This document shows, in pieces, positions 7,076-43,515 of a DNA stretch of 44,879 nt. Origin of the DNA: Falsiruegeria mediterranea M17 (GTDB taxonomy: Bacteria > Pseudomonadota > Alphaproteobacteria > Rhodobacterales > Rhodobacteraceae). The stretch lies in NCBI RefSeq assembly GCF_900302455.1, contig NZ_ONZG01000021.1, positions 1-44,879 of the forward strand. The letters are read 5' to 3'. Every line of letters starts with the position of its first letter. Within the stretch, counting starts at the first letter, position 1. A program made the translations under genes and the position numbers. The notes beneath the pieces are model-generated. The model was given only the letters and a program-made list of their open reading frames with translations, had not been told where the DNA came from and searched no databases.

Positions 7076-7146
7076 GTCTTGAGCCTAAGTCCCCCAGCAC
7101 CCCCTCCCTCTTTAACTGCTTAAATCTGAATTTCTTGATATTTGGA

Positions 7147-7174: not shown

Positions 7175-7197
7175 TTTGACTGGTTCAGCAGGCATGG

Positions 7198-8727
7198 ATG
7201 GGTATGGAAGCGATACAGCGAGACGATCAAGTTAATAGTGCTCCCGCTCTCCCCAACCGTTCGCGGTTGTTCGTTAGTGTCATTTCCGTGGGCATCAACG
7301 TGCTCGTATTGGCACTGCCCCTCGCTCTTCTTCAGGTCTATGATCGAATTTTGCCGAACCAATCAGCAGGATCTGCGATTGTCATTTTTTCGGCTGTTGT
7401 CGTGGCGTTGTTGCTTTCAGGACTGCTTCGATACGTCAGATCTGGCATCTTTGCTCGCTGGTCTGCGTTGGAGGAACACCGGCTCTGGTCTCGAACCGCA
7501 CGGCAATTGCTTCAAGGGCATCACAGCAGGGAGGACGCTCTTATGCTCGCCTCCGCGCCCGCCAAGGCACGTGATGTGAATGTGGGTCAAACGATGCTGG
7601 CCCGCTTCGACGCGCCCTTCTCCATCGTTTTCCTCGCTCTGATTGCCTATCTCGGTGGAATCGTGGTCGCCGCGCCCTTGCTGGTTGCCGCCGTTTCAGT
7701 AGTCGCCTTTTTTAGTGTTGCTCCTCGGAACCGGGCGGCGCTGGAGCAAGAGCTGCGCGCGGGCGCGCAATTCGAGGCTGGTGTGACGGGGCTTGCGAAC
7801 ACATCCTCGAACACTACGAGGTTGTCCAGCCTCGGCTCTGTGTTTGCCCGATTGGCCTACGCCCGCTCGGTTCAGTCGAATGCAAACAGGACGACGCAGA
7901 ACGTCAGCACCTTCCAATTGGACCTGTTGCAAAGCGGCGCACTAATTTCGACCGTCGGTGTTGTCTGGTTGGGCGCCGAAGCGGTGCTCGCAGGACAGAT
8001 GACAACCGGCGGCCTTGCTGCCTGCACGTTGCTCGGCTCTCGGGCGGCATCCCAGCTTGTCGGGATTGCGGCGACTGGTCTGCGTGCTCAGCCCGCAGCC
8101 ATCGCAGCGGTGCAATCTAAGGCGGTCCTTGAAACCAATGAAGGAACCGAACGTCGACCGTCCCTTACAACGACAGAGTATCTACAGACGGCCGGCGGTG
8201 GTCTCTGGCTGCTCGAGGCGACCCTTAATCAATCGCCGTCCGAGAAGCTGGAAGCCATCATTGGTCACCTGCCCCGCAACCTCGCGGATCCCGAGGCGGT
8301 CCGGATCGTTCCAGCTCGGCCGCGGCTGCTGAGCGGTCGACTGATGGATTGTCTTTCCCGGCTGGACAAGGCTCTCGAGGTTCAAGCGTTGTCTCTGTCG
8401 CGCGAGGTCGGGCTTGACAACCTCGTTTGTCGCCTAACCCACGGGTACGATACGGAACTTGAGGCGTCCGGCCGACCACTCTCGGATGGCGGCGCCAAGC
8501 GCGCCGCGATAGTCCAAGCATTCACCGGCAATCCCAAAATGGTTATTCTCGAGGCGCCAGAAGCCTGCCTTGATGTCGAAGCACTGAAGATGCTGTCGGC
8601 ATTCCTTCTTGCACACTCGGATGACGTCAAGATCGTGGTGCAGACATCATCCGAGGATCTTCGCAACGACCTGGAAGTTGCCACTCGGCTCGAAAACCCA
8701 AGTAACTGGATCGAGGGGCTAGAATGA
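7198..8727 (+). CDS. Type I secretion ABC half-transporter with degenerate ATPase (no Walker A)
   Basis: A 509-residue protein. Residues 24-300 are an ABC exporter membrane domain with the LQVYDRILPNQS motif typical of type I secretion ATPases near the end of the first helix. There is no N-terminal C39-like domain. The nucleotide-binding part (about 330-509) is roughly 60 residues short. The region where Walker A should lie (about 335-365) has no GxxGxGKS/T; the Q-loop position reads ARPRLLSG; the signature is LSDGGAK (428-434) instead of LSGGQ; and Walker B is ILEAPEACLD, with the catalytic Glu replaced by Ala453. It cannot bind ATP through its own P-loop. It overlaps the next ABC gene by 4 bp (ATGA), suggesting a heterodimer. 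ATG 7198 is the longest start; ATG 7204 in the same frame has a GGATGGG just before it and is possible. Confidence 0.85.
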   Translation: MGMEAIQRDDQVNSAPALPNRSRLFVSVISVGINVLVLALPLALLQVYDRILPNQSAGSAIVIFSAVVVALLLSGLLRYVRSGIFARWSALEEHRLWSRTARQLLQGHHSREDALMLASAPAKARDVNVGQTMLARFDAPFSIVFLALIAYLGGIVVAAPLLVAAVSVVAFFSVAPRNRAALEQELRAGAQFEAGVTGLANTSSNTTRLSSLGSVFARLAYARSVQSNANRTTQNVSTFQLDLLQSGALISTVGVVWLGAEAVLAGQMTTGGLAACTLLGSRAASQLVGIAATGLRAQPAAIAAVQSKAVLETNEGTERRPSLTTTEYLQTAGGGLWLLEATLNQSPSEKLEAIIGHLPRNLADPEAVRIVPARPRLLSGRLMDCLSRLDKALEVQALSLSREVGLDNLVCRLTHGYDTELEASGRPLSDGGAKRAAIVQAFTGNPKMVILEAPEACLDVEALKMLSAFLLAHSDDVKIVVQTSSEDLRNDLEVATRLENPSNWIEGLE

Positions 8728-10664
8728 TGTCCGATGCCCCCAGCTTTCTCCAGTCCATTCTTAAGTTTCTCGACGGGCGCCACTCCGATCAGGCCTTAGA
8801 GGCTGCATTTGGGGGGTTCTCATCATCGCTGTCTGACATGGCGCGCGCCTGCAACCTGATCGGGGTACACGCCTCAGTTCACAAGGGCGTTCCGGCATCC
8901 TGGAGCGACGGGCATGATGGCGCTCTGATCACGAAAGAAGGCTCCAATTGGATTAGCATCGTAAGACGGGATGGTGATCTCAGTTCATTCCCGGAGCACA
9001 ATGAAGCGGATCAGGTTCTCTTGTCCAACGGGCCGTTTCTATATCTGCGCATGCTCCCCGAAGCAGAGGCATCGAAAGTCACGTATGCCAATCTATCGTC
9101 TCGCGCGCGCGGCGCCTTTGTCCATGTCGCGTGGCAATCCTTAGTCATCAACCTATGCGCTCTGGCGGTGCCTTTTTTCACCATGGCTGTGTACGACCGG
9201 GTGTTGGGGGGCGGCGCCGCTCAGTCGCTTCCGGCCCTCTTGTCAGGCGCAGTAATCGTTCTGATCACAATGCTGGCAATGCGGCGCGTGCGGTCGGGGC
9301 TTGCTTCTGCAGAATATGCCGCGCTTTCGGGGCAGATCTCGACACTGCTGGCGGGCAAGATGCTGCGGTCGCCTGCATCGAATGCGGCCGGAAATTCTGG
9401 CAGTACGATCATCGCGAGGGTACGGCAAGGCGAGCGCGCAGCTGATCTGTTCGCCTCTCCGAACATTGCGGCGATTTACGATGCGCCCTTTATCCTGCTG
9501 ACATTTGCCGCCCTGGTGATCGTTGGCGGCGGCATGGCGATCATCCCCGCGATCTACCTTGTGCTGTTTTTCGGTTTCGGCTTACTGATGAATGCTGGAA
9601 CCGGTGGCAGGGACCCTTATGCTGTCCGTCAGTCCCAGCGACGCACGCAGATGATCGGTGAACTGGTCGATGCCAACGGGGCCATTCAACGCGCCGGACT
9701 AAGCAAAAAGTGGCTTCAGCGGTTCGACGCGACCTTGCGGTCGAGCGCGCGCGACACACACCGTTCCATGATAAGAACCGGATCCCATTCGGCTATCGCA
9801 ACCACCCTCGGGTCTGGCACCGCTTTGGTTACGCTGGTCGTTGGAATCGATCTCGCACTGAAGGGCCATTTGTCGCCGGGCACGCTGATCGGGACCATGT
9901 TGTTGACATGGCGCATTACGGGTCCGGCACAATCGCTGTTCCTAGCAATTCCGCGCCTCAAGGCAATCCGCAGCGGTTGGACTTCGCTTCAGGTTCAGCT
10001 CCGTGCGCCCACAGTGGGTCAGGATTCCCATCTTCAGATCGCACTCGAACCTAAGGCACCCGCCGTGGCTGCGCAGGGTCTCTTCTACCGTCATGAAGCT
10101 GGTCAACCACCTGCCGTCACCGGCGTAACGTTTGATGTCGCCCCTGGCAGCGTGGTCGTCGTCATGGGGCCAAACGGGTCGGGTAAATCTACTTTGCTCC
10201 AACTCGTCTCGGGGCATCTTCGCCCGCAATCCGGGCATGTGACGCTAAATGGGCGCCAAATGTCCCAGTACGATCCCGACGAGATCGACGTGCGTTGCGC
10301 CTATGTCGGTGGTGACAAGAGCGTTTGGCTGGAGCGGAGCAAAACAAAGCTCAGGGTTGGGTTTTCCCTGGAAGCCGATGTGGAACGTGCAGCCTGGAGC
10401 GCGATTACGGGACATGACTGCTCGTTCTTCGTTCTCGACGATCCGCTCTCGGCAAATGGCAAGGATGCCGTGAACGAGATCGCGACGTTCATCGACGAGA
10501 GGCGTGGCAACGCTACAATCTTCCTTGCAACCCACGACACGGAACTCGCGGCGCACGCCGATATTGCCATCGTGCTGGACGCCGGAAATGTCGTCTATTG
10601 CGGACCTGTTCAGACAGAAAAGCCAGAGGCAAAATCTTCGACGGAGGAGAAAAGTAATGGGTGA
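8724..10664 (+). CDS. Type I secretion ABC transporter with Walker A but no signature motif
   Basis: A 646-residue protein: an N-terminal C39-like region without a catalytic cysteine (about 1-125), an exporter membrane domain (about 135-410, with MAVYDRVLGGG) and an ATPase domain (about 430-625). Walker A is intact (GPNGSGKST, K488 and S489), Walker B reads FFVLDDPLS (D572, with Asp573 where the catalytic Glu is usual), and the H-loop His604 is present. The segment between Q-loop (CAYVGGDKS) and Walker B is shortened and contains no LSGGQ-like signature. These losses complement those of the preceding protein. It overlaps the upstream gene by 4 bp and the downstream fusion-protein gene by 8 bp. 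Inferred role: the ATP-binding partner of a heterodimeric exporter in the inner membrane. Confidence 0.87.
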   Translation: MMSDAPSFLQSILKFLDGRHSDQALEAAFGGFSSSLSDMARACNLIGVHASVHKGVPASWSDGHDGALITKEGSNWISIVRRDGDLSSFPEHNEADQVLLSNGPFLYLRMLPEAEASKVTYANLSSRARGAFVHVAWQSLVINLCALAVPFFTMAVYDRVLGGGAAQSLPALLSGAVIVLITMLAMRRVRSGLASAEYAALSGQISTLLAGKMLRSPASNAAGNSGSTIIARVRQGERAADLFASPNIAAIYDAPFILLTFAALVIVGGGMAIIPAIYLVLFFGFGLLMNAGTGGRDPYAVRQSQRRTQMIGELVDANGAIQRAGLSKKWLQRFDATLRSSARDTHRSMIRTGSHSAIATTLGSGTALVTLVVGIDLALKGHLSPGTLIGTMLLTWRITGPAQSLFLAIPRLKAIRSGWTSLQVQLRAPTVGQDSHLQIALEPKAPAVAAQGLFYRHEAGQPPAVTGVTFDVAPGSVVVVMGPNGSGKSTLLQLVSGHLRPQSGHVTLNGRQMSQYDPDEIDVRCAYVGGDKSVWLERSKTKLRVGFSLEADVERAAWSAITGHDCSFFVLDDPLSANGKDAVNEIATFIDERRGNATIFLATHDTELAAHADIAIVLDAGNVVYCGPVQTEKPEAKSSTEEKSNG

Positions 10665-11958
10665 AAATCGCGGAGATCAACCTTTCGACCTTTACGATAC
10701 TTCCACCTTTGTCTGGATGCGCCGTGCGGCAATCGTTGTTCTGCTAGGACTTGCCGCGCTGGTGGTCTGGATGGTCTACATGCCGGTCGACGAGATCTCA
10801 AAAGCGCGCGGTGAAATCGAACCCATCACGCAAGTGAAACGCGTCGAAAGTCGACATGGCGGCCAACTGGCCGAACTGCGCGTGACGCGCGGTCAGATGG
10901 TGGAAGCGAGCGAAATCGTGGCTGTCCTGGATCAGGCTGAAGCGCAATCTGCACTTCGGGCCGCCGAAGTTCGCATTGCGGGTCTCTCCCTCGAGATTGA
11001 ACGCCTCCTCGCGCTTGCAGAAGGTCGAGAACCAGATTTCTCAACCCATGCTGAGGATTTCAGTGGCCTCGTGGAACGCGAGAAAGCCGCTCTGGCAGCA
11101 ACACGAGCCTTCATTCGCGCCGAACACTCGGTGATCCGCTCTCAAATCAAAGAAAAACGGGCCGAGATTAGCGCAATTGACGAGGAACGCCCCCAACTCA
11201 TCCAACAGATCGCCGTCGCTGAGGAGGAGCGCTCTGTTCAGCAGGACCTGTTGGATCGCGGCCTGAGCGCACGCGCGAAGCTTGCTGAACTGCGCGAACA
11301 GGAGGCTCAGTATCGTTTTGACCTTGCGCAACTCGCTGGCCGTCGAGCCATCGCCGAGGCTGAGGTCGCCGAACTTCAGGCCTCACTGACACAAGTCGAA
11401 TTGGATGAGTTTGCCAAGGCGAGAAGCCGGATTGCAGAGGCAGACTCCCAGCGTCGCGCATTGCAGGCTGAAGCTGCCGGCCTGCTGAGCCGCGTTGCTG
11501 AGACCGAGATACGCTCTCCAATTGCCGGGGTAATCCAATCGATCCCCGACGACACGATCGGCGACGTCATTGACCCCGGCGGCATGGTGGTCACGATTGT
11601 TCCGGCCGATGGTGGCTACCGTTTCAGCGGGCGCTTGTCGCCGCGCGATGTCGGCTTCGTCTCGGTCGGGCAACCCGTTCGATTGAAAATCGACAGCTTC
11701 GACTACAGCCGTTTTGGCGCATTGCCCGGCACAGTTGAGGAAGTGTCACCTACAACGGCTGTCGATGAGCGTGGAATAGCTTTCTACGAAGTCCTGGTGC
11801 AGCTTGACAGTGACCATTTCCGCGATGCCGAGGACGGCCTCATTCTGATCGCCGGGATGACCGGCGAGGCCGACATAAGGACTGGCTCCAAGACCGTTTT
11901 TCAGTATGTCTGGAAACCCATTTACACAAATCTTGACCTTGCATTGACCGAGCGGTGA
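10657..11958 (+). CDS. HlyD-family membrane fusion protein of type I secretion
   Basis: A 433-residue periplasmic adaptor anchored by one N-terminal helix (residues 24-43). It would link the ABC pair to an outer-membrane channel. Order: short cytoplasmic tail, helix, first half of a lipoyl-like domain (about 55-92, ESRHGGQLAELRVTRGQ), a long Ala/Glu/Arg-rich coiled coil (about 93-280), then the second lipoyl half (IRSPIAGVIQSI) and a beta-barrel (about 320-433). ATG 10657 is chosen because GGAGGAG stands just upstream and the start overlaps the ABC stop by 8 bp; the open frame upstream of it lies inside the ABC gene. No outer-membrane channel gene follows, so it may share the TolC encoded at 41948-43396. 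Confidence 0.93.
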   Translation: MGENRGDQPFDLYDTSTFVWMRRAAIVVLLGLAALVVWMVYMPVDEISKARGEIEPITQVKRVESRHGGQLAELRVTRGQMVEASEIVAVLDQAEAQSALRAAEVRIAGLSLEIERLLALAEGREPDFSTHAEDFSGLVEREKAALAATRAFIRAEHSVIRSQIKEKRAEISAIDEERPQLIQQIAVAEEERSVQQDLLDRGLSARAKLAELREQEAQYRFDLAQLAGRRAIAEAEVAELQASLTQVELDEFAKARSRIAEADSQRRALQAEAAGLLSRVAETEIRSPIAGVIQSIPDDTIGDVIDPGGMVVTIVPADGGYRFSGRLSPRDVGFVSVGQPVRLKIDSFDYSRFGALPGTVEEVSPTTAVDERGIAFYEVLVQLDSDHFRDAEDGLILIAGMTGEADIRTGSKTVFQYVWKPIYTNLDLALTER

Positions 11959-11969
11959 GGAGCGACGCG

Positions 11970-14900
11970 ATGTCAGACCATAACCCGAGCAAGCCCCAAA
12001 CTTCGCGCGCGACAGCGGACCCCAGGGACGAATTGTCAGAAGAAGTTTTTGCCTGGGTTGTGACTGACACGAGCGAACTTGCAGAAGTTCCGACCGAGGG
12101 CTCTCATGCTGCACCTGAGGGCTCCGAGCAAAGCGGGGGCGGTTCCGGCAATCGGCAGTTGTTGGTTTCTGCACCGGCCCTGGCACGCCATATGGGTGTT
12201 GATTTTTCCGAGCTGCATTCCGAACCAAGTCGTCTTGGGGCAGAACCCGGCTCCGACTGGTTAGCCTCGTCCGGCTTGGCCCCACTCCCACCGGTTCACC
12301 TTCGCGGCTCAGTCGCGGGCGAACCCAACTTCACCCACGCCTTACCGAGCATAGGATCAAATCAGAACGTCGGGCATGCGGTCATTCCAACGGCTTCAAG
12401 CGGCAGTGGCAGTCAAGCATCGAGACAGACGCCGAGCCATATCGTGACGGGCGGCCAACCAAACGGGCCCGCCATTGCCGGGTTCATCCCGAGCGCAAAG
12501 GAAGGCAACCCCGTCCCAATCGTGATCTCGGTGGTGAATGGCAACAACACCCTGAACGGATCCACCGTGACCTTGGGTGGATTGCCACCCGGAACAACCT
12601 TGGACCAAGGTCACGCAGGACAAGGCGGCACCTGGGTCCTCGGCCCTGGCACCGACTTAAAGACCCTGACCATGACGCCCCCGACCGACTGGTTCGGATC
12701 CGGACACATCGCAGCGACCGTTGTTGATCCAAACGGACACTCGGCGCAGATCCAGATGCCATTTACTGTGCAGCCGCAGCCCGACGCAGCCAAGATTACG
12801 GGAACGGACTCCGGAACTGCGTCCGAAGACCATGTATTGAGTGTGTCCGGCGCGTTGACGGTCATCGACCCTGATCCGGGCGAGGCACATTTTCACACCG
12901 CGGCCTTGACCGGCAGTTACGGTCGTGTGCAGATCGATCGATCAGGTCATTGGACCTATGTTTTGAACAACAGTTCTCCTTCGGTACAGGCGCTGGTTTC
13001 GGGACAGAGCGAGCACGAAACGTTCACCATCCATAGTGTGGATGGCACAAGCCATCAATTGGTGGTGATTGTTATGGGCACCGACGACAAGGCCGCGATC
13101 TCGGGCACCGCCGTGGGCGCCGTGACAGAGGACAAGCTGACCGCGACCGGCGGCAAGCTCGATGTCACAGACCCAGATGCGGGCCAGGCCAGCTTTGTGC
13201 CACAGACCGGCGCGGCAGGCGCCCACGGCAGTTTCACCGTGCAGCCCGATGGCACCTGGAGCTACACGCTCGACAACGGACAACCCGCTGTCCAGGCGCT
13301 CAAGACCGGCGACCAGATCACCGACACCCTCACCGTCTCAACCGTCGACGGCACCACCAAACAGATCACCGTCACCATCAACGGCACCGACGACAAGGCC
13401 GCGATCTCGGGCACCGCCGTGGGCGCCGTGACAGAGGACAAGCTGACCGCGACCGGCGGCAAGCTCGATGTCACAGACCCAGATGCGGGCCAGGCCAGCT
13501 TTGTGCCACAGACCGGCGCGGCAGGCGCCCACGGCAGTTTCACCGTGCAGCCCGATGGCACCTGGAGCTACACGCTCGACAACGGACAACCCGCTGTCCA
13601 GGCGCTCAAGACCGGCGACCAGATCACCGACACCCTCACCGTCTCAACCGTCGACGGCACCACCAAACAGATCACCGTCACCATCAACGGCACCGACGAC
13701 AAGGCCGCGATCTCGGGCACCGCCGTGGGCGCCGTGACAGAGGACAAGCTGACCGCGACCGGCGGCAAGCTCGATGTCACAGACCCAGATGCGGGCCAGG
13801 CCAGCTTTGTGCCACAGACCGGCGCGGCAGGCGCCCACGGCAGTTTCACCGTGCAGCCCGATGGCACCTGGAGCTACACGCTCGACAACGGACAACCCGC
13901 TGTCCAGGCGCTCAAGACCGGCGACCAGATCACCGACACCCTCACCGTCTCAACCGTCGACGGCACCACCAAACAGATCCAGATTACGATCCACGGAACG
14001 AATGACGCGCCGGTTCTGAGTACTGCGACGGCCTCAGCAACCGAGGACGGGTCCTCGGTCACCGGCCAGATGTCGGCCACGGATGTGGATACGGGTGACA
14101 CGCTGGCCTATTCTCTCGGGCAGACCGCCCCTGCCGGATTTACGCTGAACGCAGACGGCTCCTGGAGCTTCGATCCGACAGATGGGGCCTATCAACATCT
14201 GGCGGCAGGCGCGACGCAGCAGCTCACCATCCCGGTCACAGTCACCGACAAGACCGGGGCCACAGATACCGAGAACCTCGTCATCACGGTGACAGGCACC
14301 AATGACGGCCCGGCCGTCAGCGGCCCGGTCACGCTTCCGGGCGGCACCGAGGACAAGGCGGTGCAGATCACCGCGGCACAGCTTCTCGAGCATGCGACCG
14401 ATATCGACACGGGCGATGCACTCTCGGTGACCGGCCTGACGGCAAGCCACGGCACGATCAGTGGCGACGCGGCCAACGGCTTCACCTTCACGCCGGACCC
14501 CAACTACAACGGCCCGGTCGCCCTCAGCTACACCGTCACCGACGGCCATGGTGGAAACACCGCGCAAACCGCCAACCTGACATTGGCGGCAGTCGGAGAC
14601 GCGGCGGTGATAACGGCGAGTGTTCCTCAACTCAAAGAGGACAGGGACCTTACTGGTTTCGGCAGCGGCGCGGAGCTACAGGCAACGGGGCATTTCCACG
14701 TCACGGATCCCGATGGCCCGGCACAATCGCAATTCGTGCCACATGATGTGAACGGGCTGTTACAGGGGTCTTTTGGCGGCACGCTCCAGATCTACGCCAA
14801 TGGAAAGTACTATTATCATCTTCCGAATGTCGACGTCGATTATCTCAAGGACGGGGAGTCGGTACAGGATCGCTTCACCATTGATAGCGTCGACGGCACG

Positions 14901-17900
14901 ACCCAGGAGGTCGTGTTTACAATCCACGGCACCAGCGATGCACCCGTCATCTATTCCAACCGACACTATGTGTTCGAGGACAATCATCCGCTGGCGGGTC
15001 AGGTTGGCAAACCGCTGACCGACAGGATCAGCGCCGATGATGCAGACAAAGGCGACACTGCACAGCTGGTGTTCAAGCCCATAGCGCAGGTGCCAGGATT
15101 TTCTCTGAAGCCGGACGGTAGCTACACTTTCGACGCATCCAACAGCGCCTATCAGTATTTGTCGGAGGGGCAGAAGCACACAGTATCGATCCCCTTCTCG
15201 GTGACTGATCCGGATGGACACACATCGACAGGCCATCTGACGATCAAGGTGGAAGGCACCAATGATGTGCCGTCGATCGACGGAAGTTCCGTGACAACGG
15301 GCACCGTCACCGAGGACGCCAGTTCGACGAGGGCGACGGGAACGATGTCCGCGAGTGATGTCGATGCAGGCTCGCGGCTCCATTGGGCCGCGGTGGGATC
15401 GACCCAGGGACACTACGGGTCATTTGCCATCGATGCCCACACAGGTCAGTGGACTTACACGCTCGACAACAGCCTGCCTGCCACGCAGCAGCTTTCGGCT
15501 ACCGATCAACCCACCGAAAACTTCCGCGTCGCAGTGATTGATGAGCACGGTGCCCAGAGCCAGAAGACCGTTGTTGTCACGGTGAGCGGAACAAACGACG
15601 GCCCGGCCGTCAGCGGCCCGGTTACGCTTCCAGGCGGCACTGAGGACAAGGCGGTGCAGATCACCGCGGCACAACTTCTCGAGCATGCGACAGATGTGGA
15701 CACGGGCGATCAGCTCTCAGTCACCGGCCTGACGGCCAGCCACGGCACGATCAGTGGCGACGCGGCCAACGGCTTTACCTTTACACCGGACCCCAACTAC
15801 AACGGCCCTGTCAGCCTGAGCTACACCGTCACCGACGGTCACGGTGGAAGTGTCGCGCAGAAGGCGACAATCGCGCTGGCCGCCCGGGATGACCCGGCGG
15901 TTGTTTCCGGCACGGATACCGGCGACTTGACCGAAGACAAAAATGTAGGACCGTCGTCGGCACATCCGATTAGCGTTGGTGGCACCTTGAGCGTTTCGGA
16001 TCCTGACGGAGCGGCATCGAACCACTTCAGTTACTCCATCTGGGGAGAACATGCGGTCTCTGATCCTTTTGGCGGAAGCCTTCACATGGACCGCTATGGA
16101 AACTGGCACTATGCGGTGGACAACTCTCATGCTGCCGTTCAACGTCTCGCCGCCGGTGAAGAAGGGCATGCCACGTATCGTGTGAGCACCGCAGACGGCA
16201 CGACGCACCAGATCCAGATCACGATCCACGGGACGAATGACGCGCCGGTTCTGAGTGCTGCGACGGCCTCAGCAACCGAGGACGGGTCCTCGGTCACCGG
16301 CCAGATGTCGGCCACGGATGTGGATACGGGTGACACGCTGGCCTATTCTCTCGGGCAGACCGCCCCTGCCGGATTTACGCTGAACGGCGACGGCTCCTGG
16401 AGCTTCGATCCGACAGATGGGGCCTATCAACATCTGGCGGCAGGCGCGACGCAGCAGCTCACCATCCCGGTCACAGTCGCCGACAAGACCGGGGCCACAG
16501 ATACCGAGAACCTCGTCATCACGGTGACAGGCACCAATGACGGCCCGGCCGTCAGCGGCCCGGTCACGCTTCCGGGCGGCACCGAGGACAAGGCGGTGCA
16601 GATCACCGCGGCACAGCTTCTCGAGCATGCGACCGATATCGACACGGGCGATCAGCTCTCGGTCACCGGCCTGACAGCCAGCCACGGCACGATCTCGGGC
16701 GACGCGGCCAACGGCTTCACCTTTACGCCAGACCCGAACTACAACGGGCCGGTTGCCCTCAGCTACCAGGTCACGGATGGCCATGGAGGGACGGTCGCGC
16801 AAACCGCCAACCTGACATTGGCGGCAGTCGGAGACGCTGCCATCATCGGCGGCGTTGATACCGGCGATGTGACCGAAAACACGGCTGGAGTGGACATGTC
16901 GCCTGACTACGCGCAGCCAGGTATGGCCACGCTCCAGAGGTCCGTACTCTCTGCGGACGGCAAATTAACGATCCTCGATCCCGATGCCGGTGAAGCGGAG
17001 TTTGACACGGTTCGACCGGGCATAAATTATCACGGAACCTATGGCGACCTGTACCTGAAAGCCAATGGGGAATGGCACTATTACGGTGATGCCGGTCATC
17101 TGGCAGACGCTGGTGCTCGGCCGACCACGCGCGGCACGGCGATCGACCAGCTGGGCGTTGGCCAGACGCTGACGGACACGATCACGGTGCATTCCAAGGA
17201 TGGCACGCCGCATGACATCGTGATCACGATCCACGGCAGCAACGACCGGCCCTATTGCTCGTCCGAAGTCACGCTACGTCCCGGCACCGAGGATGTACGC
17301 CAGACGCTCACCACGACGCAGCTGCTCGCGAACACCGTCGATGTCGATGCCAACGATGCCGGCAAGCTGAGCATCGAAAACCTGCACCCTGATCACGGCT
17401 CGATCCGCGACAATGGCGATGGTACCTTCACCTTCACGCCTGGTAAGGATTACAGCGGCGCGGTCCACTTCACCTACGACGTGAAGGACGCCCATGGCGG
17501 GGTGACCCACACCGGAGCCACTACAACACTGGCGGCCGTCGGCGACGCCGCCGTGATCACCGGGACGGATACCGGGTCGGCGACCGAAGACAAGGTGCAC
17601 GGCCGGATCGTGATCAGTGGCGATCTGGACGTGACGGATCCGGACGGTCCAGGACAGGAGCATTTCCAATACAGCCAGTTTGGGGAACATGCTGTCTCCG
17701 ACCCGTTTGGCGGCAGCCTGCACATCAGTTCCGCGGGAACGTGGAGCTATGTCACTGACAACAGCAATGCAGCCGTTCAACAGCTCGCAGCAGGTCAGGT
17801 CGGTCATGCCACCTACCGGGTCTCTTCCGCGGACGGCACGACGCATCAGATCCAGATCACGATCCACGGAACAAATGACGCGCCTGTTCTGAGTGCGTCC

Positions 17901-20900
17901 ACGGCCTCGGCGACCGAGGATGGCAGCGCGGTCTCGGGACAGATGTCGGCGACGGATGTGGATACGGGCGACACGCTGGCCTATTCACTCGGCCAGGCGG
18001 CCCCTGCGGGGTTTGCGCTGAACGCAGATGGCTCCTGGAGCTTTGACCCGACCGATGCGGCCTATCAGCACCTCGCGGCAGGCGCGACCGAACAGGTCAC
18101 CATCCCGGTCACCGTCACAGATGGCACCGACACCGACACGCAGAACCTCACGATTACCGTCACAGGCACCAATGACGCTGCCGTCTATTCGGGATCAACG
18201 ACTGGCAGCATAACCGAAGACCAGCTCAGCAGGTCCGGTAGACTTGAAACCGCCTGGCACAATTTGGATGTCACGGACCCCGACACGGGCGAAGGACAGG
18301 TCGTCGCGATCGAAGTGGGCGGCGTATTGCACCAGCTTCCTGCGAATTTCGCCTCGACCATCCAAGGTACATATGGCTCTTTCCATACAACCCATGGCAC
18401 GGATGGGCACGATAAGTGGATGTATTTCGCCGACAATGGGAACCCGGCCATCCAGGGTTTGAAGGCTGGCGAAAACCTGGGGGAAACGGCGGTTCTGGTT
18501 ACTCAGGATGGTACGCGGGTTCCAATCTCGGTTACGATTCAAGGCCATGAAGACGGTGTGGTCATCGATACGCCTGCCTCGACTGCCGGTTGGCTGGGCG
18601 AAGTCGTCGAGGACAGCAAGACGCAAGTGAGCGGTCAGCTGCAAGCGCATGATACCGACACGCACGACAGCGTGTCCTTCACGACGCAGACGACAACGAA
18701 TGCCTATGGCACCTTTACGGTAGACGCATCCGGGCATTGGGCTTTTGCTCTGGATAACAACGCGGTGCAAAACATGCGCGCGGGCCAGCGGCATGCAATG
18801 GGCTTCGATATTGAAGCGGTGTCGACCGACGGTTCGAAGGCAATGCAACATGTCGAGATCTTCGCCCGAGGCACCAATGATGCCCCAGTGCTGAGCGCTT
18901 CGACCGCATACGCAACGGAGGATGGCCAGCGCGTTACGGGTCGGATGTCAGCGACTGACGTAGATACCGGCGACACGCAGCGCTTCTCGATCGCTCAACC
19001 TGTTGACGGGTTCACGATGAACCAGGACGGGTCGTGGAGTTTCGATCCCACGGGTGCAGCCTATCAGAACATCCCAGACGGCCAGACGCGAGATGTGACC
19101 ATTGCCGTTACGGTCGCCGACAAGGCCGGTGCGACGGATACCCGCAACCTTGTCATCACCGTTACTGGAACGAACGATTCCGCGCGGATCGCGGGTGTTG
19201 ACACTGGCCACGTGACCGAGGACGTCGGCCCCGGCCACCATACTTCGCTGGCCCGTATCTCCACGTCCGGCACGCTCACCATCACCGACCCGGATGCGGG
19301 CGAAGCTGCCTTTACCCCTGTAGCTGGAACGGCCGGCGCGGGCACTTACGGCAGTTTCACGCTGGATGCGAACGGGAATTGGACCTACACGGCCGACAAT
19401 AGCCAGGCGGCTGTTCAGGGGCTGGGTACCTCGAGCCCGCCGCTGACAGATACGCTGACCATCACCAGCATCGATGGCACGCAGCATACGCTGACCGTGA
19501 CGATTCACGGCACCAACGACGCGCCTGTTCTGAGTGCTGCAACGGCCTCGGCGACCGAGGATGGCAGCGCGGTCTCGGGACAGATGTCGGCGACGGATGT
19601 GGATGCGGGCGACACGCTGGCCTATTCACTCGGCCAGGCGGCCCCTGCGGGATTTGCGCTGAACGCCGATGGCTCCTGGAGCTTTGACCCGACCGACGCG
19701 GCCTATCAGCACCTGGCGGCAGGTCAGACCGAGCAGGTCACTATCCCGGTCACCGTCACCGACGGAACGGCCACCGACACCCAGAACCTTGTCATTTCCG
19801 TTACCGGCACAAATGATCTGACAGTTTTCGGCGGCGTTCAGACCGGCACTACGCATGAAGATGGAAACGATGTGCAGTTGTTCGGTTCAACGTACAAGCA
19901 CGACGCCACCGATTGGCAGAGATTTACCGTGCACGATGCCGATGGGCCCGTGAGCCAATTGCAGATCGAGTTTGGCGGCAAGATCGCGATCTGGGACATG
20001 CAATCAGACCTTGATGTTGCTACCCCTTACGGCAAGTTCCAGTTCGTACACGCTGATGGCCAAGGGGTTCTTTCGGAGGGCTACTATTGGAACTACATCG
20101 GTGACAATAAAAACGCTGCTGTTCAAGCCTTGAAGGCCGGGGAGGCTTTGCCACCAGAACAGATAACCTTGATTTCGCCAGATGGTGTTCGATTTCCGCT
20201 CACCGTTACTGTTCAGGGAGCGGAGGACGGGGTCCGGATCGACACAAGTGGAACGATTGACCATGTGATCGAACAAGGTCCATCAACCCCTGTCATCACC
20301 AGTGGACAGCTTCAGGCACATGATATCGACACATCCGACAGCGTGAGTTGGCAGGCGACGCCGACGGGGGGGATAACAGGTCATCTGGGTACGTTCACCG
20401 TCGATGCTTCCGGTCATTGGGAGTATCAGCTTGATCCTGCAAAAGCCGCGATGTTGGGCGACAAGATGCAGTTTTTTGAACACTTTAGCATTGTGGCGAC
20501 CTCGACCGATGGTTCAAAGGCGAACCAACAGGTGTCGGTTCAAGTGGTTGGTACCAATCAGGCCCCCTCCCTAAGCGCCATGACGGCCTCGGCGACGGAG
20601 GACGGCAGCCGGGTGACGGGGCAGATGTCGGCGACGGATGTCGATACCGGCGACACGCAGGCCTATTCGCTGGGCCAGGCGGCGCCGGCGGGCTTCACGC
20701 TGAACGGCGATGGCTCCTGGAGCTTTGATCCGACCGACGCCGCCTACCAGCACCTCGCGGCAGGCGCGACCGAACAGGTCACCATCCCGGTCACCGTCAC
20801 AGATGGCACCGACACCGACACGCAGAACCTCACGATTACCGTCACAGGCACCAATGATGCGGCCGTCTATTCGGGATCAACGACTGGCAGCATAACCGAA

Positions 20901-23693
20901 GACCAGCTCAGCAGGTCCGGTAGACTTGAAACCGCCTGGCACAATTTGGATGTCACGGACCCCGACACGGGCGAAGGACAGGTCGTCGCGATCGAAGTGG
21001 GCGGCGTATTGCACCAGCTTCCTGCGAATTTCGCCTCGACCATCCAAGGTACATATGGCTCTTTCCATACAACCCATGGCACGGATGGGCACGATAAGTG
21101 GATGTATTTCGCCGACAATGGGAACCCGGCCATCCAGGGTTTGAAGGCTGGCGAAAACCTGGGGGAAACGGCGGTTCTGGTTACTCAGGATGGTACGCGG
21201 GTTCCAATCTCGGTTACGATTCAAGGCCATGAAGACGGTGTGGTCATCGATACGCCTGCCTCGACTGCCGGTTGGCTGGGCGAAGTCGTCGAGGACAGCA
21301 AGACGCAAGTGAGCGGTCAGCTGCAAGCGCATGATACCGACACGCACGACAGCGTGTCCTTCACGCCGCAGACGACAACGAATGCCTATGGCACCTTTAC
21401 GGTAGACGCATCCGGGCATTGGGCTTTTGCTCTGGATAACAACGCCGTGCAAAACATGCGCGCGGGCCAGCGGCATGCAATGGGCTTCGATATTGAAGCG
21501 GTGTCGACCGACGGTTCGAAGGCAATGCAACATGTCGAGATCTTCGCCCGAGGCACCAATGATGCCCCAGTGCTGAGCGCTTCGACCGCATACGCAACGG
21601 AGGATGGCCAGCGCGTTACGGGTCGGATGTCAGCGACTGACGTAGATACCGGCGACACGCAGCGCTTCTCGATCGCTCAACCTGTTGACGGGTTCACGAT
21701 GAACCAGGACGGGTCGTGGAGTTTCGATCCCACGGGTGCAGCCTATCAGAACATCCCAGACGGCCAGACGCGAGATGTGACCATTGCCGTTACGGTCGCC
21801 GACAAGGCCGGTGCGACGGATACCCGCAACCTTGTCATCACCGTTACTGGAACGAACGATTCCGCGCGGATCGCGGGTGTTGACACTGGCCACGTGACCG
21901 AGGACGTCGGCCCCGGCCACCATACTTCGCTGGCCCGTATCTCCACGTCCGGCACGCTCACCATCACCGACCCGGATGCGGGCGAAGCTGCCTTTACCCC
22001 TGTAGCTGGAACGGCCGGCGCGGGCACTTACGGCAGTTTCACGCTGGATGCGAACGGGAATTGGACCTACACGGCCGACAATAGCCAGGCGGCTGTTCAG
22101 GGGCTGGGTACCTCGAGCCCGCCGCTGACAGATACGCTGACCATCACCAGCATCGATGGCACGCAGCATACGCTGACCGTGACGATTCACGGCACCAACG
22201 ACGCGCCTGTTCTGAGTGCGGCGACGGCTTCGGCGACCGAGGACGGTTCAACGGTGTCTGGCCAAATGTCGGCAACGGACACGGATAAGGGTGATGCGCT
22301 AACCTATTCACTTGGCCAAGCTGCACCTGCTGGGTTCACACTGAACCCTGACGGTAGTTGGAGCTTTGATCCCAAGGATGCGGCTTACCAGCACCTGGCG
22401 GCAAGCGCGACCGAACAGGTAACCATACCTGTAACCGTCACCGATGGCACCGATACCGACTCGCGTAACCTCGTGATTACCGTTACGGGCACCAATGACG
22501 GGCCTGTTGTTCATCCAGGAGACCTCGGAGCGACGCAACCGGGGGCAAACAAGACCTGGTCGCCTGCAGATCTGTTGGCCGCCATTCACGCGACCGACGT
22601 GGATCAGGGTGATCAACTGTCAGTTTCAAATATTCAAGTCGATGCGCGATACGGGAGCTTCCACCAAACCGGCGGCAACTGGGTGTTCACCCCCACATCC
22701 GGCGCAAACCAAACCGATGTCCCAGTGACGATCTCGGTAACGGATGGTCATGAAACTCGCAGTACTACGGCGACTTTGGATGTAACTGCGGCGCCAACAC
22801 CTCCCAAGGCAACGCAGGTTCAAGGTTCTGGAACCACGCACCTGTCGGGCACTCTGACCGGCGGTTCCGGGGGGTGGTCGATCGACAATGGCCAAGGCCA
22901 CGGAGTTCTCTCATTGCAGGGCCAGTACGGGACGTTGACCATCAATCCCCAGAACGGGCATTTCGAATACAATTATCGTGCGGATTCCGCTGTGATCAAA
23001 CAAGGCGGTGGCGGAACAACATCCGGGCGCCATACCGACACGTTCCGCATCCTGCAGCATGGAACGCATACGTCGGATGCAGAGGTGCAGGTCAATATCA
23101 ACGTCCAGAGCGTGCATGGGAACAGTGGTCACCACGTTGATCACACGACCCTGCTGGGTATTGACATCGTGCCAGTAACGCCTTCGCAACACAACGCTCC
23201 GAGTTACGATGAGCCTGCAATTGAGGTAACTGTGGACATGGATCCACAAGATCCCAATGACGAAATCATCGGCCTGAGCGACGTTGTTGAAGCGTCTGTC
23301 GCTCAACGATCAGAAGTTGCCGATGCTGAACAATCACAGGGCACTTCGCCCGAAAACGAACCCACCGAGCATTCGCGCGAGGCGATCGCCGGGTCCAGCC
23401 AGGACTCCCCAACATCCCCCTATCTTGACGCGATTGGAGGCGGGGTAGGTCCTGACGCGTCTTCTCAAACACCGGGCGTTGATCACGCAAACCCGTATGT
23501 GTCGGCACTTGGTGTTGACGCGTTATCGCCCGGTGACACACCTGTTCTGGATCCGACAACGTTGGATGACCCTATGGTGTCAGGAAATGCAGAGCCCGAT
23601 GCTCAGAATGAAAACGTAGAACCTGATCTCCCGATGGATGATCCGATTGTTCATTTGCCAGAAGATGACGATCCGTCAACCAACTCGGGCTAG
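11970..23693 (+). CDS. Giant VCBS / cadherin-like repeat protein, probable type I secretion substrate
   Basis: A 3,907-residue repeat protein, 11 bp after the fusion-protein gene, with a GAGGAG site spanning that stop (start ATG 11970, not GTG 11955). Residues about 1-165 are low-complexity and polar; about 170-270 form an Ig-like domain. The rest is a long train of VCBS domains (TEDK...DPDAG...GTYGSFTLD.NG.WTYTADN...TVTIHGTND) alternating with cadherin-like tandem domains (TEDKAVQITAAQLLEHATD). Each carries acidic turns such as DVDTGDT, plausible calcium ligands. The final 170 residues are acidic and Pro/Ser-rich. There are no RTX nonapeptides, no Sec signal and no obvious type I C-terminal domain, so export by the adjacent transporter is inferred from operon structure. 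Likely a cell-surface or biofilm adhesin. Several repeat pairs are almost identical at DNA level. Confidence 0.9.
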   Translation: MSDHNPSKPQTSRATADPRDELSEEVFAWVVTDTSELAEVPTEGSHAAPEGSEQSGGGSGNRQLLVSAPALARHMGVDFSELHSEPSRLGAEPGSDWLASSGLAPLPPVHLRGSVAGEPNFTHALPSIGSNQNVGHAVIPTASSGSGSQASRQTPSHIVTGGQPNGPAIAGFIPSAKEGNPVPIVISVVNGNNTLNGSTVTLGGLPPGTTLDQGHAGQGGTWVLGPGTDLKTLTMTPPTDWFGSGHIAATVVDPNGHSAQIQMPFTVQPQPDAAKITGTDSGTASEDHVLSVSGALTVIDPDPGEAHFHTAALTGSYGRVQIDRSGHWTYVLNNSSPSVQALVSGQSEHETFTIHSVDGTSHQLVVIVMGTDDKAAISGTAVGAVTEDKLTATGGKLDVTDPDAGQASFVPQTGAAGAHGSFTVQPDGTWSYTLDNGQPAVQALKTGDQITDTLTVSTVDGTTKQITVTINGTDDKAAISGTAVGAVTEDKLTATGGKLDVTDPDAGQASFVPQTGAAGAHGSFTVQPDGTWSYTLDNGQPAVQALKTGDQITDTLTVSTVDGTTKQITVTINGTDDKAAISGTAVGAVTEDKLTATGGKLDVTDPDAGQASFVPQTGAAGAHGSFTVQPDGTWSYTLDNGQPAVQALKTGDQITDTLTVSTVDGTTKQIQITIHGTNDAPVLSTATASATEDGSSVTGQMSATDVDTGDTLAYSLGQTAPAGFTLNADGSWSFDPTDGAYQHLAAGATQQLTIPVTVTDKTGATDTENLVITVTGTNDGPAVSGPVTLPGGTEDKAVQITAAQLLEHATDIDTGDALSVTGLTASHGTISGDAANGFTFTPDPNYNGPVALSYTVTDGHGGNTAQTANLTLAAVGDAAVITASVPQLKEDRDLTGFGSGAELQATGHFHVTDPDGPAQSQFVPHDVNGLLQGSFGGTLQIYANGKYYYHLPNVDVDYLKDGESVQDRFTIDSVDGTTQEVVFTIHGTSDAPVIYSNRHYVFEDNHPLAGQVGKPLTDRISADDADKGDTAQLVFKPIAQVPGFSLKPDGSYTFDASNSAYQYLSEGQKHTVSIPFSVTDPDGHTSTGHLTIKVEGTNDVPSIDGSSVTTGTVTEDASSTRATGTMSASDVDAGSRLHWAAVGSTQGHYGSFAIDAHTGQWTYTLDNSLPATQQLSATDQPTENFRVAVIDEHGAQSQKTVVVTVSGTNDGPAVSGPVTLPGGTEDKAVQITAAQLLEHATDVDTGDQLSVTGLTASHGTISGDAANGFTFTPDPNYNGPVSLSYTVTDGHGGSVAQKATIALAARDDPAVVSGTDTGDLTEDKNVGPSSAHPISVGGTLSVSDPDGAASNHFSYSIWGEHAVSDPFGGSLHMDRYGNWHYAVDNSHAAVQRLAAGEEGHATYRVSTADGTTHQIQITIHGTNDAPVLSAATASATEDGSSVTGQMSATDVDTGDTLAYSLGQTAPAGFTLNGDGSWSFDPTDGAYQHLAAGATQQLTIPVTVADKTGATDTENLVITVTGTNDGPAVSGPVTLPGGTEDKAVQITAAQLLEHATDIDTGDQLSVTGLTASHGTISGDAANGFTFTPDPNYNGPVALSYQVTDGHGGTVAQTANLTLAAVGDAAIIGGVDTGDVTENTAGVDMSPDYAQPGMATLQRSVLSADGKLTILDPDAGEAEFDTVRPGINYHGTYGDLYLKANGEWHYYGDAGHLADAGARPTTRGTAIDQLGVGQTLTDTITVHSKDGTPHDIVITIHGSNDRPYCSSEVTLRPGTEDVRQTLTTTQLLANTVDVDANDAGKLSIENLHPDHGSIRDNGDGTFTFTPGKDYSGAVHFTYDVKDAHGGVTHTGATTTLAAVGDAAVITGTDTGSATEDKVHGRIVISGDLDVTDPDGPGQEHFQYSQFGEHAVSDPFGGSLHISSAGTWSYVTDNSNAAVQQLAAGQVGHATYRVSSADGTTHQIQITIHGTNDAPVLSASTASATEDGSAVSGQMSATDVDTGDTLAYSLGQAAPAGFALNADGSWSFDPTDAAYQHLAAGATEQVTIPVTVTDGTDTDTQNLTITVTGTNDAAVYSGSTTGSITEDQLSRSGRLETAWHNLDVTDPDTGEGQVVAIEVGGVLHQLPANFASTIQGTYGSFHTTHGTDGHDKWMYFADNGNPAIQGLKAGENLGETAVLVTQDGTRVPISVTIQGHEDGVVIDTPASTAGWLGEVVEDSKTQVSGQLQAHDTDTHDSVSFTTQTTTNAYGTFTVDASGHWAFALDNNAVQNMRAGQRHAMGFDIEAVSTDGSKAMQHVEIFARGTNDAPVLSASTAYATEDGQRVTGRMSATDVDTGDTQRFSIAQPVDGFTMNQDGSWSFDPTGAAYQNIPDGQTRDVTIAVTVADKAGATDTRNLVITVTGTNDSARIAGVDTGHVTEDVGPGHHTSLARISTSGTLTITDPDAGEAAFTPVAGTAGAGTYGSFTLDANGNWTYTADNSQAAVQGLGTSSPPLTDTLTITSIDGTQHTLTVTIHGTNDAPVLSAATASATEDGSAVSGQMSATDVDAGDTLAYSLGQAAPAGFALNADGSWSFDPTDAAYQHLAAGQTEQVTIPVTVTDGTATDTQNLVISVTGTNDLTVFGGVQTGTTHEDGNDVQLFGSTYKHDATDWQRFTVHDADGPVSQLQIEFGGKIAIWDMQSDLDVATPYGKFQFVHADGQGVLSEGYYWNYIGDNKNAAVQALKAGEALPPEQITLISPDGVRFPLTVTVQGAEDGVRIDTSGTIDHVIEQGPSTPVITSGQLQAHDIDTSDSVSWQATPTGGITGHLGTFTVDASGHWEYQLDPAKAAMLGDKMQFFEHFSIVATSTDGSKANQQVSVQVVGTNQAPSLSAMTASATEDGSRVTGQMSATDVDTGDTQAYSLGQAAPAGFTLNGDGSWSFDPTDAAYQHLAAGATEQVTIPVTVTDGTDTDTQNLTITVTGTNDAAVYSGSTTGSITEDQLSRSGRLETAWHNLDVTDPDTGEGQVVAIEVGGVLHQLPANFASTIQGTYGSFHTTHGTDGHDKWMYFADNGNPAIQGLKAGENLGETAVLVTQDGTRVPISVTIQGHEDGVVIDTPASTAGWLGEVVEDSKTQVSGQLQAHDTDTHDSVSFTPQTTTNAYGTFTVDASGHWAFALDNNAVQNMRAGQRHAMGFDIEAVSTDGSKAMQHVEIFARGTNDAPVLSASTAYATEDGQRVTGRMSATDVDTGDTQRFSIAQPVDGFTMNQDGSWSFDPTGAAYQNIPDGQTRDVTIAVTVADKAGATDTRNLVITVTGTNDSARIAGVDTGHVTEDVGPGHHTSLARISTSGTLTITDPDAGEAAFTPVAGTAGAGTYGSFTLDANGNWTYTADNSQAAVQGLGTSSPPLTDTLTITSIDGTQHTLTVTIHGTNDAPVLSAATASATEDGSTVSGQMSATDTDKGDALTYSLGQAAPAGFTLNPDGSWSFDPKDAAYQHLAASATEQVTIPVTVTDGTDTDSRNLVITVTGTNDGPVVHPGDLGATQPGANKTWSPADLLAAIHATDVDQGDQLSVSNIQVDARYGSFHQTGGNWVFTPTSGANQTDVPVTISVTDGHETRSTTATLDVTAAPTPPKATQVQGSGTTHLSGTLTGGSGGWSIDNGQGHGVLSLQGQYGTLTINPQNGHFEYNYRADSAVIKQGGGGTTSGRHTDTFRILQHGTHTSDAEVQVNINVQSVHGNSGHHVDHTTLLGIDIVPVTPSQHNAPSYDEPAIEVTVDMDPQDPNDEIIGLSDVVEASVAQRSEVADAEQSQGTSPENEPTEHSREAIAGSSQDSPTSPYLDAIGGGVGPDASSQTPGVDHANPYVSALGVDALSPGDTPVLDPTTLDDPMVSGNAEPDAQNENVEPDLPMDDPIVHLPEDDDPSTNSG
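13077..13979 (+). repeat. Three perfect 306-bp tandem repeats encoding VCBS domains
   Basis: Units start at 13077, 13383 and 13689 (each 102 codons). I see no base difference among them until the third diverges at 13980. Perfect identity in synonymous positions implies recent amplification or ongoing homogenisation, and copy number may vary between strains. Confidence 0.92.
13976..14602 (+). repeat. Copy 1 of a 627-bp dispersed coding repeat (partner at 16211-16837)
   Basis: Encodes a VCBS-like domain followed by a cadherin-like domain. It matches the partner at an offset of 2,235 bp (745 codons) with scattered substitutions, so it is older than the tandem array. Confidence 0.8.
16211..16837 (+). 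repeat. Copy 2 of the 627-bp dispersed coding repeat (partner at 13976-14602)
   Basis: Same domain pair as copy 1, with small differences such as Thr versus Ala codons and Asn-Ala versus Asn-Gly before the conserved DGSWSFDPTDGAYQ motif. Confidence 0.8.
18066..19537 (+). repeat. Copy 1 of a 1,472-bp nearly identical duplication (partner at 20748-22219)
   Basis: Encodes about 490 residues covering several VCBS-type domains. Compared with the partner 2,682 bp downstream I see only about four base differences (for example at about 18178-18181, 18684 and 18752). The reading frame is kept because the offset is 894 codons. Confidence 0.9.
20748..22219 (+). repeat. Copy 2 of the 1,472-bp nearly identical duplication (partner at 18066-19537)
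   Basis: Near-identical to copy 1, while the 1.2 kb between the copies (19538-20747) is unrelated except for common domain motifs. Consistent with a segmental duplication within the gene or gene conversion between distant modules. Confidence 0.9.
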
Positions 23694-41947: not shown

Positions 41948-43396
41948 CTACTTATCGACCGTTTTCCGCCAGTTCTTGAAGGAGTTTGCATCAAACTGAC
42001 GTTCGCTGCTGACCTCGCTCAACCCCGGTGCGCCCACCTGATCGCGGGCATAGGGTTGGGAATCCTCGGGCGGTTCCATTCCCAGTGTAGGCAACAGAAC
42101 CCCGATGGACGCCAGCAGGCGGTATTCGACATAGGTCGCAAGGCTTCGTGCATTGATCAGATTGGCCTCGGCCTGAAACAGCGCACTCTGGGTGTTCAAC
42201 ACATCCAGAAGCGACCGGTTGCCGACCAGATATTCTGTCTCATATGCCTCACGCAGGTTGCGCGACAGACGAGCCTGAGCCTGAATGGTCGACAACCGAC
42301 GTTTGGCGGAGCGAAGGGTCGACCAGGACTGGCGCACCTCGCTCTCGACCCTGCGGGTGTGGGACAATAGATGCGACCGGCTTTCATTCACTCGGCGCGC
42401 CTGCTCCTGACGCTCGGCACGTTTGCGGTTGCCCTGAAACTCGTATCGCATGACCACACCAACCCGAAAATCCTCGCGGTCGCCGGTAAACCCGCCAACG
42501 TCTTCGCCTGTTCGCCCCTCTGCTTCGAGGTGCAATGTGGGATACTGGTTCGAATTGGCCCGACGAGACAACGCCTCGGCAGAGCCGACATCCGACTGCA
42601 TGAACTTGATTGTCGGATTGTCCGAACGCGCCCGTCCAATTGCTGTCTCCAGCGAAGGTGGAACAGCGCGAGAGATGACCGGTATCGTCTGAAGCGCTTT
42701 TGCCTCGACCCCAACGGTGGCAAGAAACAAAGTCTTGGCGTCTTCGGAGTTGAGTTGAAACTCTAGAATGATGTCTTCGGCCAGGTAGACGCGCTCTTCG
42801 CCTTGTTGCAGGTCACCGATCCCAACGACCCCACGATCGTACCCGGTCTTCAAACGGCCATAGACATCACGATGATAGGCCAGATTGCTTTGCGCAAGTG
42901 ACAAAAGCGACTGGGTTCGCAATACGTCTGAATACAGACGTACGGCCTCCAACGACAAAACCTCGGAGCGCTCAAGAACCCGAAAGGCAGCACCGTCAAT
43001 CCGGTAGGCCTGACGCTCGATTTCAGACCGCGTCCGAAAGCCGTCAAACAACATCTGAGAAATGCGTGCGGTTGCTTCGTACCCATCAACCGACCCGGCT
43101 GCCGCCCCCAGATCAGGCGAGGCCGTTCCGCGGTTCTCACTGGTTCCGGCCCAGACCTCGAATTCGACGCGCGGTGCATAGAAGTTCCGCGCCTGTTCAA
43201 GCTCAAATTCGATCGCCTGTTTGTTTGCCTCGGCCGCCTTGATATCGGGGTTCGTCTCAAGAACGAACAGGATCGTATCCTTGAGAGACAAAGCGTCGGC
43301 CCTGCTTGCTCCCAAGGTGGCAGCGGCCACAGACAAAGCGCACATCACTGCTTTGAACACACAAAAACCCTTCGGTTGTGAAACTCTGAAACCCAT
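41948..43396 (-). CDS. TolC-family outer-membrane efflux/secretion channel
   Basis: About 480 residues, the normal TolC length. After an N-terminal signal peptide with hydrophobic core near CALSVAAATLGA (cleavage expected after RADA), the mature protein starts LSLKDTILFVLETNPDIKAA, a typical TolC/LapE opening, and shows the two alpha-barrel repeats. These end in features such as YEFQGNRKRAERQEQA and NRSLLDVLNTQSALFQAEANL. The frame is open to 43432. I prefer ATG 43396 because it gives a more usual signal peptide; a GTG at 43360 preceded by AAGGG would also work. First gene of the tolC/ABC/HlyD operon and the only outer-membrane channel in the window, so it may serve both secretion systems. 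Confidence 0.92.
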   Translation of the reverse strand: MGFRVSQPKGFCVFKAVMCALSVAAATLGASRADALSLKDTILFVLETNPDIKAAEANKQAIEFELEQARNFYAPRVEFEVWAGTSENRGTASPDLGAAAGSVDGYEATARISQMLFDGFRTRSEIERQAYRIDGAAFRVLERSEVLSLEAVRLYSDVLRTQSLLSLAQSNLAYHRDVYGRLKTGYDRGVVGIGDLQQGEERVYLAEDIILEFQLNSEDAKTLFLATVGVEAKALQTIPVISRAVPPSLETAIGRARSDNPTIKFMQSDVGSAEALSRRANSNQYPTLHLEAEGRTGEDVGGFTGDREDFRVGVVMRYEFQGNRKRAERQEQARRVNESRSHLLSHTRRVESEVRQSWSTLRSAKRRLSTIQAQARLSRNLREAYETEYLVGNRSLLDVLNTQSALFQAEANLINARSLATYVEYRLLASIGVLLPTLGMEPPEDSQPYARDQVGAPGLSEVSSERQFDANSFKNWRKTVDK

Positions 43397-43515
43397 GGTG
43401 ACAAACCTATACCGAAAATGCCTTAAGGACATAAGTCCAACTTCGATTACTTGAATAAGTCAGACACGTTGTCCACAATACAACAATAGCAAATTTCCCC
43501 GTATGAGGAATTTCG

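Follow-up and report, generated by a model that had tools for sequence, protein, structure and literature searches.

Can a type I secretion exporter of the ATP-binding cassette (ABC) class work with a single ATP site? The need for two ATP sites in ABC transporters, and the role of a degenerate one, have long been debated, and the question is raised by two adjoining genes of Falsiruegeria mediterranea M17, carried on a stretch of 44,879 nucleotides (contig NZ_ONZG01000021.1, positions 1 to 44,879) that we refer to as the window. The first open reading frame (ORF; 7198..8727) encodes subunit A, a type I secretion ABC protein of 509 aa made of a transmembrane domain (TMD) and a reduced nucleotide-binding domain (NBD); the second (8724..10664) encodes subunit B, of 646 aa, with an N-terminal domain, a TMD and an NBD that lacks the signature-bearing helical subdomain. 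Both lie on the forward strand and overlap by 4 bp, as the original prediction, made from the letters of the sequence, had described them. Sequence comparison makes it probable, in our judgment, that A and B form an obligate heterodimeric type I ABC exporter which has one ATP site and serves the 3912-aa adhesin encoded next to it. The further proposal, that the two complementary NBD halves export this giant protein with a single ATP site and with no catalytic glutamate in either chain, is offered tentatively, with a little less than an even chance of being correct.

Motif residues were read from the alignment of the two proteins with other A-B pairs and with the window's canonical ABC protein. 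In A, residues 341-349 (ATLNQSPSE; 8218..8244) stand at the position of the lost P-loop, A373 occupies that of the Q-loop Gln, Walker B reads Glu452-Ala453 (8551..8556), its Asp and catalytic Glu both being lost, and the H-loop His is replaced by S484; the signature LSDGG (residues 428-432; 8479..8493) and the D-loop Asp459 (8572..8574) are retained. B carries a Walker A, GPNGSGKST, at residues 482-490 (K488; 10167..10193), a Walker B Asp572-Asp573 (10437..10442) in which Asp573 replaces the catalytic Glu, and the H-loop His604 (10533..10535); Gly530 (10311..10313) stands at the Q-loop Gln position, and about 39 residues, covering the helical subdomain and signature, are missing after it. All these positions are on the forward strand. 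Alignment bears out what had been predicted from the letters for A (no Walker A, no Q-loop Gln, Ala453 for the catalytic Glu, LSDGG kept) and for B (K488, D572 and H604 present, signature absent, helical subdomain shortened), the shortening of B being seen also in the segment lengths (42 vs 81). The Asp573 and Gly530 substitutions in B go beyond that prediction.

Orthologous pairs with the same losses, the search for which the original prediction had proposed together with a measurement of the ratio of nonsynonymous to synonymous substitution rates (dN/dS), were found at eight loci, hereafter window-type: the window, genomes G003, G001 and G065, two uncultured Shimia, Shimia litoralis and Tateyamaria sp. 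Alg231-49 (G126 and G266 being counted once with the S. litoralis and Tateyamaria records). A profile of A matches 5 of the 394 genomes of the family sample at E 1e-40. The segments from NBD start to Walker A, Walker A to Q-loop and Q-loop to Walker B measure 17/32/79-80 in A and 36/48/42 in B in seven of the eight loci, and 11/30/80 and 36/48/22 in the eighth (L070), against medians of 36/48/81 for both chains in 40 other complete pairs; the length of the first A segment depends on the alignment (17, 15 or 21 in the window). A is shortened before and just after the P-loop position, its helical region being of full length. In profile searches against Pfam, A matched nothing at E up to 0.1 and did not reach the PF00005 gathering score; B matched PF00005 with 57.9 bits (cut-off 25), only over residues 466-537, that is, profile positions 2-73 of 137. 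The best NCBIfam match of each chain is a type I secretion permease/ATPase, TIGR03375 (LssB type) scoring 137.9 bits (E 3.7e-40) for A and 223.6 bits for B, both under the cut-off of 693 that the window's canonical ABC protein passes with 781 bits. Chance loss of motifs was rejected: outside the counted pairs, 24 of 25 ABC proteins carry all seven motif residues, in a control set which includes one orphan B and two near-identical proteins.

We define site 1 as the Walker motifs of A with the signature of B, and site 2 as the Walker motifs of B with the signature of A. What is gone by sequence (the first strands and P-loop of A, the helical subdomain and signature of B) are both contributions to site 1; what is kept (the P-loop, Walker-B Asp and His of B, the helical subdomain, signature and D-loop of A) belongs to site 2. 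Since the deleted parts would face each other across site 1, these losses are difficult to account for other than by a head-to-tail pairing of A with B in which only site 2 matters.

The same bias was observed in a wider set of 63 A-B pairs, 15 of which were picked for likeness to the window proteins rather than randomly, each site being scored for four marks (P-loop Lys, catalytic Glu, H-loop His and signature Gly). Damage was greater at site 1 in 50 pairs, at site 2 in 3 and equal in 10; the corresponding counts were 35, 3 and 10 in the first 48 pairs, assembled before those 15 were included, and 36, 3 and 10 in the 49 pairs outside the 14-locus clade described below. All four marks were intact at site 2 in 39 pairs, at site 1 in 13 and at both sites in 10. 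The P-loop Lys is present in 63/63 B and 43/63 A chains (lost only in A in 20 pairs, only in B in none), the signature Gly, at position 4 of the motif, in 61/63 A and 26/63 B chains (lost only in B in 35, only in A in none), and the D-loop Asp in 63/63 A and 38/63 B chains (lost only in B in 25, only in A in none). The H-loop His is intact in 22/63 A and 52/63 B chains (lost only in A in 33, only in B in 3), the catalytic Glu in 31/63 and 49/63 (only in A in 19, only in B in 1) and the Q-loop Gln in 23/63 and 44/63, respectively. When the fewest changes on the tree were counted the direction was kept, with 6 in A and 0 in B for the P-loop Lys, 2 and 6 for the signature, 0 and 5 for the D-loop, 12 and 5 for the His, and 7 and 4 for the Glu. 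Among NBD columns conserved at 90% or more, 9 of 10 in A fall within the stretch from the helical subdomain to the D-loop, and all 15 in B fall outside the helical subdomain and signature.

The window-type loci belong to a clade of 14 loci, together with four Vibrio-type loci (two Vibrio plasmids and two genomes near them) and the loci of G1090 and G896 (L170, L175). Its support is 98 in a joint quick tree and 100/98 in a careful 27-row tree holding 9 of the 14 members, 90 and 93 from A or B alone, and it is retained without the window type (99) or without the Vibrio type (98). All 14 members have lost the P-loop Lys of A and the signature Gly of B, and all 14 have kept the P-loop Lys, Walker-B Asp and H-loop His of B and the signature Gly and D-loop Asp of A, a pattern which supports the predicted composite site formed by the P-loop of B and the signature of A, with the opposite site lost. 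In G1090 and G896 the A P-loop and B signature are lost by substitution at full length, the Glu and His of B being intact; the Vibrio type is likewise of full length and has in addition Asn for the Glu of B; in the window type both reciprocal deletions are present, with Asp (7 loci) or Asn (1 locus) for that Glu. We infer from these sequences that the stages followed the order G1090/G896, Vibrio type, window type, the first two being likely intermediates.

In the exporter proposed here, the A-B pair would act with the adjacent HlyD-type protein and a TolC to export the 3912-aa adhesin. In the usual head-to-tail dimer, the retained parts of A and B would face each other and bind one ATP. The Q-loop Gln and helical subdomain help to couple the NBD to the TMD, and coupling of the NBDs to the membrane domains would be altered because B has lost its Q-loop and helical wall. 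Hydrolysis at site 2 would be slow or unusual, because the Glu is replaced by Asp573 and the Q-loop Gln is absent, or may rely on His604 and phosphate; lacking these two residues, the retained site need not be a normal ATPase. According to a review, Glu-to-Asp sites seem able to hydrolyse ATP, at a rate far slower than the transport cycle (PMC7756269); a computational study of HlyB assigns the H-loop His a direct part in catalysis and considers a phosphate-assisted mechanism (PMC6222333). Our preferred view is of one site that either hydrolyses ATP slowly or acts as a gate driven by ATP binding; export would then be driven or gated by the binding of ATP, and not by rapid alternating hydrolysis at two sites.

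Several other explanations could account for part of these observations. The pair might be a formerly normal two-ABC system in recent decay, as would fit the faster evolution of A compared with HlyD (dN/dS 0.07-0.24 vs about 0.045) and the fuller motifs of distant pairs. The frames are nevertheless open and free of stops in 8/8 window-type loci, the deletions have the same length in seven of the eight, in different species, and dN/dS, estimated pairwise by counting among five of these loci, is far below 1 in both NBDs: 0.16-0.24 in the A NBD and 0.07-0.22 in the A TMD, 0.10-0.18 in the B NBD and 0.04-0.07 in the B TMD. The comparison with the distant G001 is saturated (A NBD 0.42, B NBD 0.23, at dS above 2), and the exception is the near-identical couple L051-L052, whose B NBD gives 1.6 on very few changes. 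Since dN/dS is far below 1, decay is unlikely, as the original prediction had argued from the open frames, and together with the deletions of equal length across species this led us to reject it as very improbable. The window, G001 and G065 are identical at 19 of 27 motif positions of site 2 vs 3 of 11 still alignable positions of site 1 (Fisher p 0.03), these three all lying in the Walker B of A; agreement at other NBD positions is 17/123 in A and 39/128 in B. The pairs of L051 (Shimia) and L052 (Tateyamaria) are nearly identical (dS 0.01-0.05) and have a similar ORF just upstream (about 7096-7810), transposase-like by eye, which together suggest a recent transfer; genes further upstream differ. 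That A and B each homodimerise, or use other ABC partners, deserves the least credence: an A homodimer would be devoid of P-loops and a B homodimer of signatures, and the two genes are constantly adjacent. A and B form one open frame in G437 (1317 aa) and in three Azospirillum plasmids (1363-1378 aa), all outside the 14-locus clade, and the heterodimer is supported by these four natural fusions. Their coordinates are 3667-7758 in L144, 2134-6261 in L145, 2143-6279 in L146 and 2038-5991 in L133; in the Azospirillum plasmids the fusion is annotated as a single coding sequence.

Two further readings accept the pair and differ on how it is powered. Asp573 might act as the catalytic base and make the single site a normal, fast ATPase, in keeping with the invariance of this residue in the window and six aligned orthologues; we hold this improbable, since Glu-to-Asp sites seem to be much slower than the transport cycle according to the review cited above (PMC7756269) and Asn stands at that position in 5 of the 14 clade members. 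Alternatively, the pair could be an ATP-independent or purely ATP-gated scaffold, its energy coming from, for example, the canonical ABC protein of the second type I system in an inner-membrane complex of several ABC proteins. The lack of a catalytic Glu in both chains of 12 of the 14 clade members speaks for it, as do the canonical ABC, HlyD and TolC genes some 28-33 kb away and the HlyB-HlyD structures 7sgr and 8dck, each with six HlyB chains (presumably three dimers). This scaffold is nevertheless rather unlikely: B retains its P-loop Lys, Walker-B Asp and His in 14/14 members, the pair comes with an HlyD and a probable cargo of its own, and the annotation of the 19 and 11 kb surrounding the two Vibrio plasmid pairs shows no additional type I ABC.

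Some of our data weigh against the one-site heterodimer. The clade joins long branches, and its catalytic Glu survives in B in only 2 of the 14 members, the other 12 having it in neither chain; B has moreover neither the Q-loop Gln nor the helical subdomain. The sign tests on the direction of loss, down to 6e-11, treat related pairs as independent. Both chains are hit in some of the 63 pairs (Glu 13, His 8, signature 2), L059, L060 and L062 carry damage at each of the two sites, and L110-L112, the only 3 of the first 48 pairs with more damage at site 2, have Gln at the H-loop of B. Coupled loss of the A Glu and the B signature reached no significance with 3 usable independent tree pairs; a plain Fisher test on 40 non-window pairs, kinship ignored, gave p 0.02. 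The predicted single-chain model of B (mean predicted local distance difference test 46, predicted template modelling score 0.31) was not used. As a separate observation, the pair of L062 (6859-10682, G004) has both signatures and both Walker B motifs altered (Asn-Asn in A, Asn-Glu in B) in open frames.

Two-ABC type I systems and degenerate sites are already known. For the Vibrio MARTX toxin, two ABC proteins, RtxB and RtxE, are needed for one type I substrate and a heterodimer has been suggested (PMC3034196, PMC4316617). The likeness to the present pair, judged from description, lies in the use of two ABC proteins for one type I system; the difference is that rtxB and rtxE flank the HlyD gene, whereas the order here is A-B-HlyD, and the relevant passages of these papers make no mention of subdomain loss. 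One degenerate site is also found in TM287/288, TmrAB, the transporter associated with antigen processing (TAP), CFTR and Pdr5. Their features are partly shared by the window pair, in which two different half-transporters are encoded together and the losses are concentrated in one composite site; its second site, with Asp573, is not the canonical one with Glu. The other site is canonical in TM287/288, TmrAB, TAP and CFTR. Pdr5, one of the most deviant, has all four motifs of its degenerate site changed while its other site is canonical (PMC7756269), whereas in the window pair the Glu of that site is also lost and the subdomains of the dead site are deleted. Among solved structures, HlyB and PrtD (7sgr, 8dck, 5l22) are the three best sequence matches of B; they are within the best 12 of A, for which the bile salt export pump (8pmd) ranks first. 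HlyB and PrtD form homodimers; they differ from the window pair in being single-gene ABC proteins with both half-sites in each chain. The unusual design predicted is supported, with the qualification that the pairing of ABC subunits in type I secretion has precedents. A limited search of titles and abstract openings in the open-licence PMC literature found neither the reciprocal subdomain loss nor this A-B family.

Tandem A-B pairs are common in the wider class. Among 367 class genomes, 40 A-type matches scored above 500 bits, 38 of them with an adjoining B-type match; 35 were added to the set, 3 were already in it, and the remaining two, G518 and one G043 contig, were not used, no B partner being listed beside A. 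The class searches had E limits of 1e-75 and 1e-90, which the window pair does not reach, and may have missed other strongly reduced pairs. Five of the 19 listed plasmid-search matches and loci from 10 of the 46 genomes matched in the phylum search were also added; L128, whose B is cut off, was excluded from the counts. Of 49 loci, 46 have HlyD adjoining the pair and the remaining 3 are at contig ends; a large Ig-like or VCBS gene lies beside it in five Azospirillum and Vibrio records. In a tree of 21 of the 49 pairs and 25 other ABC proteins, the A chains fall on one side of a branch with support 99, which argues against an independent origin of the window pair; the B chains group only together with the orphan B C_L063, a strict B clade not being rejected (approximately unbiased test, p-AU 0.108). 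In the same genome as the window (G000 C48), L065 (7054-8808) encodes a type I ABC protein whose motifs are degenerate (GASSQGKTV, LSTFE, Asp-Ser at Walker B and a missing H-loop His), and the type recurs in a second genome of the genus (L148, G002). Its neighbours are an HlyD gene and an opposite-strand 362-aa ORF with an ABC ATPase match; no second full-length ABC was seen in that stretch.

In the window the pair is followed on the forward strand by a gene of the same operon for an HlyD-type membrane fusion protein (10657..11958, start codon uncertain; TIGR01843, 295 bits vs cut-off 209), the adjacent adaptor expected of a type I secretion system, and by that of the giant cadherin/Ig-repeat adhesin of 3912 aa (11955..23693), the probable cargo. 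In 8/8 window-type loci HlyD is followed by an open frame, and the starts of these frames are related (DELSEEVFAWV in the window, DELSEEGFGWV in G001, PVSEEAFGWV in G065); the frame is complete only in the window, the other seven giving 409-1832 aa before the stretch ends. By eye, the adhesin has no RTX repeat at its C-terminus, and its start is common to the window-type loci; in both respects it differs from usual type I substrates. A second, canonical type I system (ABC, HlyD, TolC-like) lies at 38383-43432, about 28-33 kb from the pair. Its TolC-like outer membrane protein (41948..43432, reverse strand; PF02321, and TIGR01844 at 222.6 bits, just under the cut-off of 225.15) is a possible shared exit channel for the A-B exporter. 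Adjoining this system is a 4450-aa protein (24938-38290) with RTX-like repeats near its C-terminus by eye and no Pfam family at 1e-5. Genes upstream of A resemble a TRAP transporter and an amidase, which we take to be unrelated to the pair.

The pairs form a graded series, from both sites intact (10/63) through loss of site 1 to reciprocal deletion, which makes the two-site question testable in protein secretion, and whose last stage raises the question of how export can proceed when the catalytic glutamate is missing. If the proposed reading is true, this family would be a natural experiment in which protein export needs neither two ATP sites nor that glutamate.

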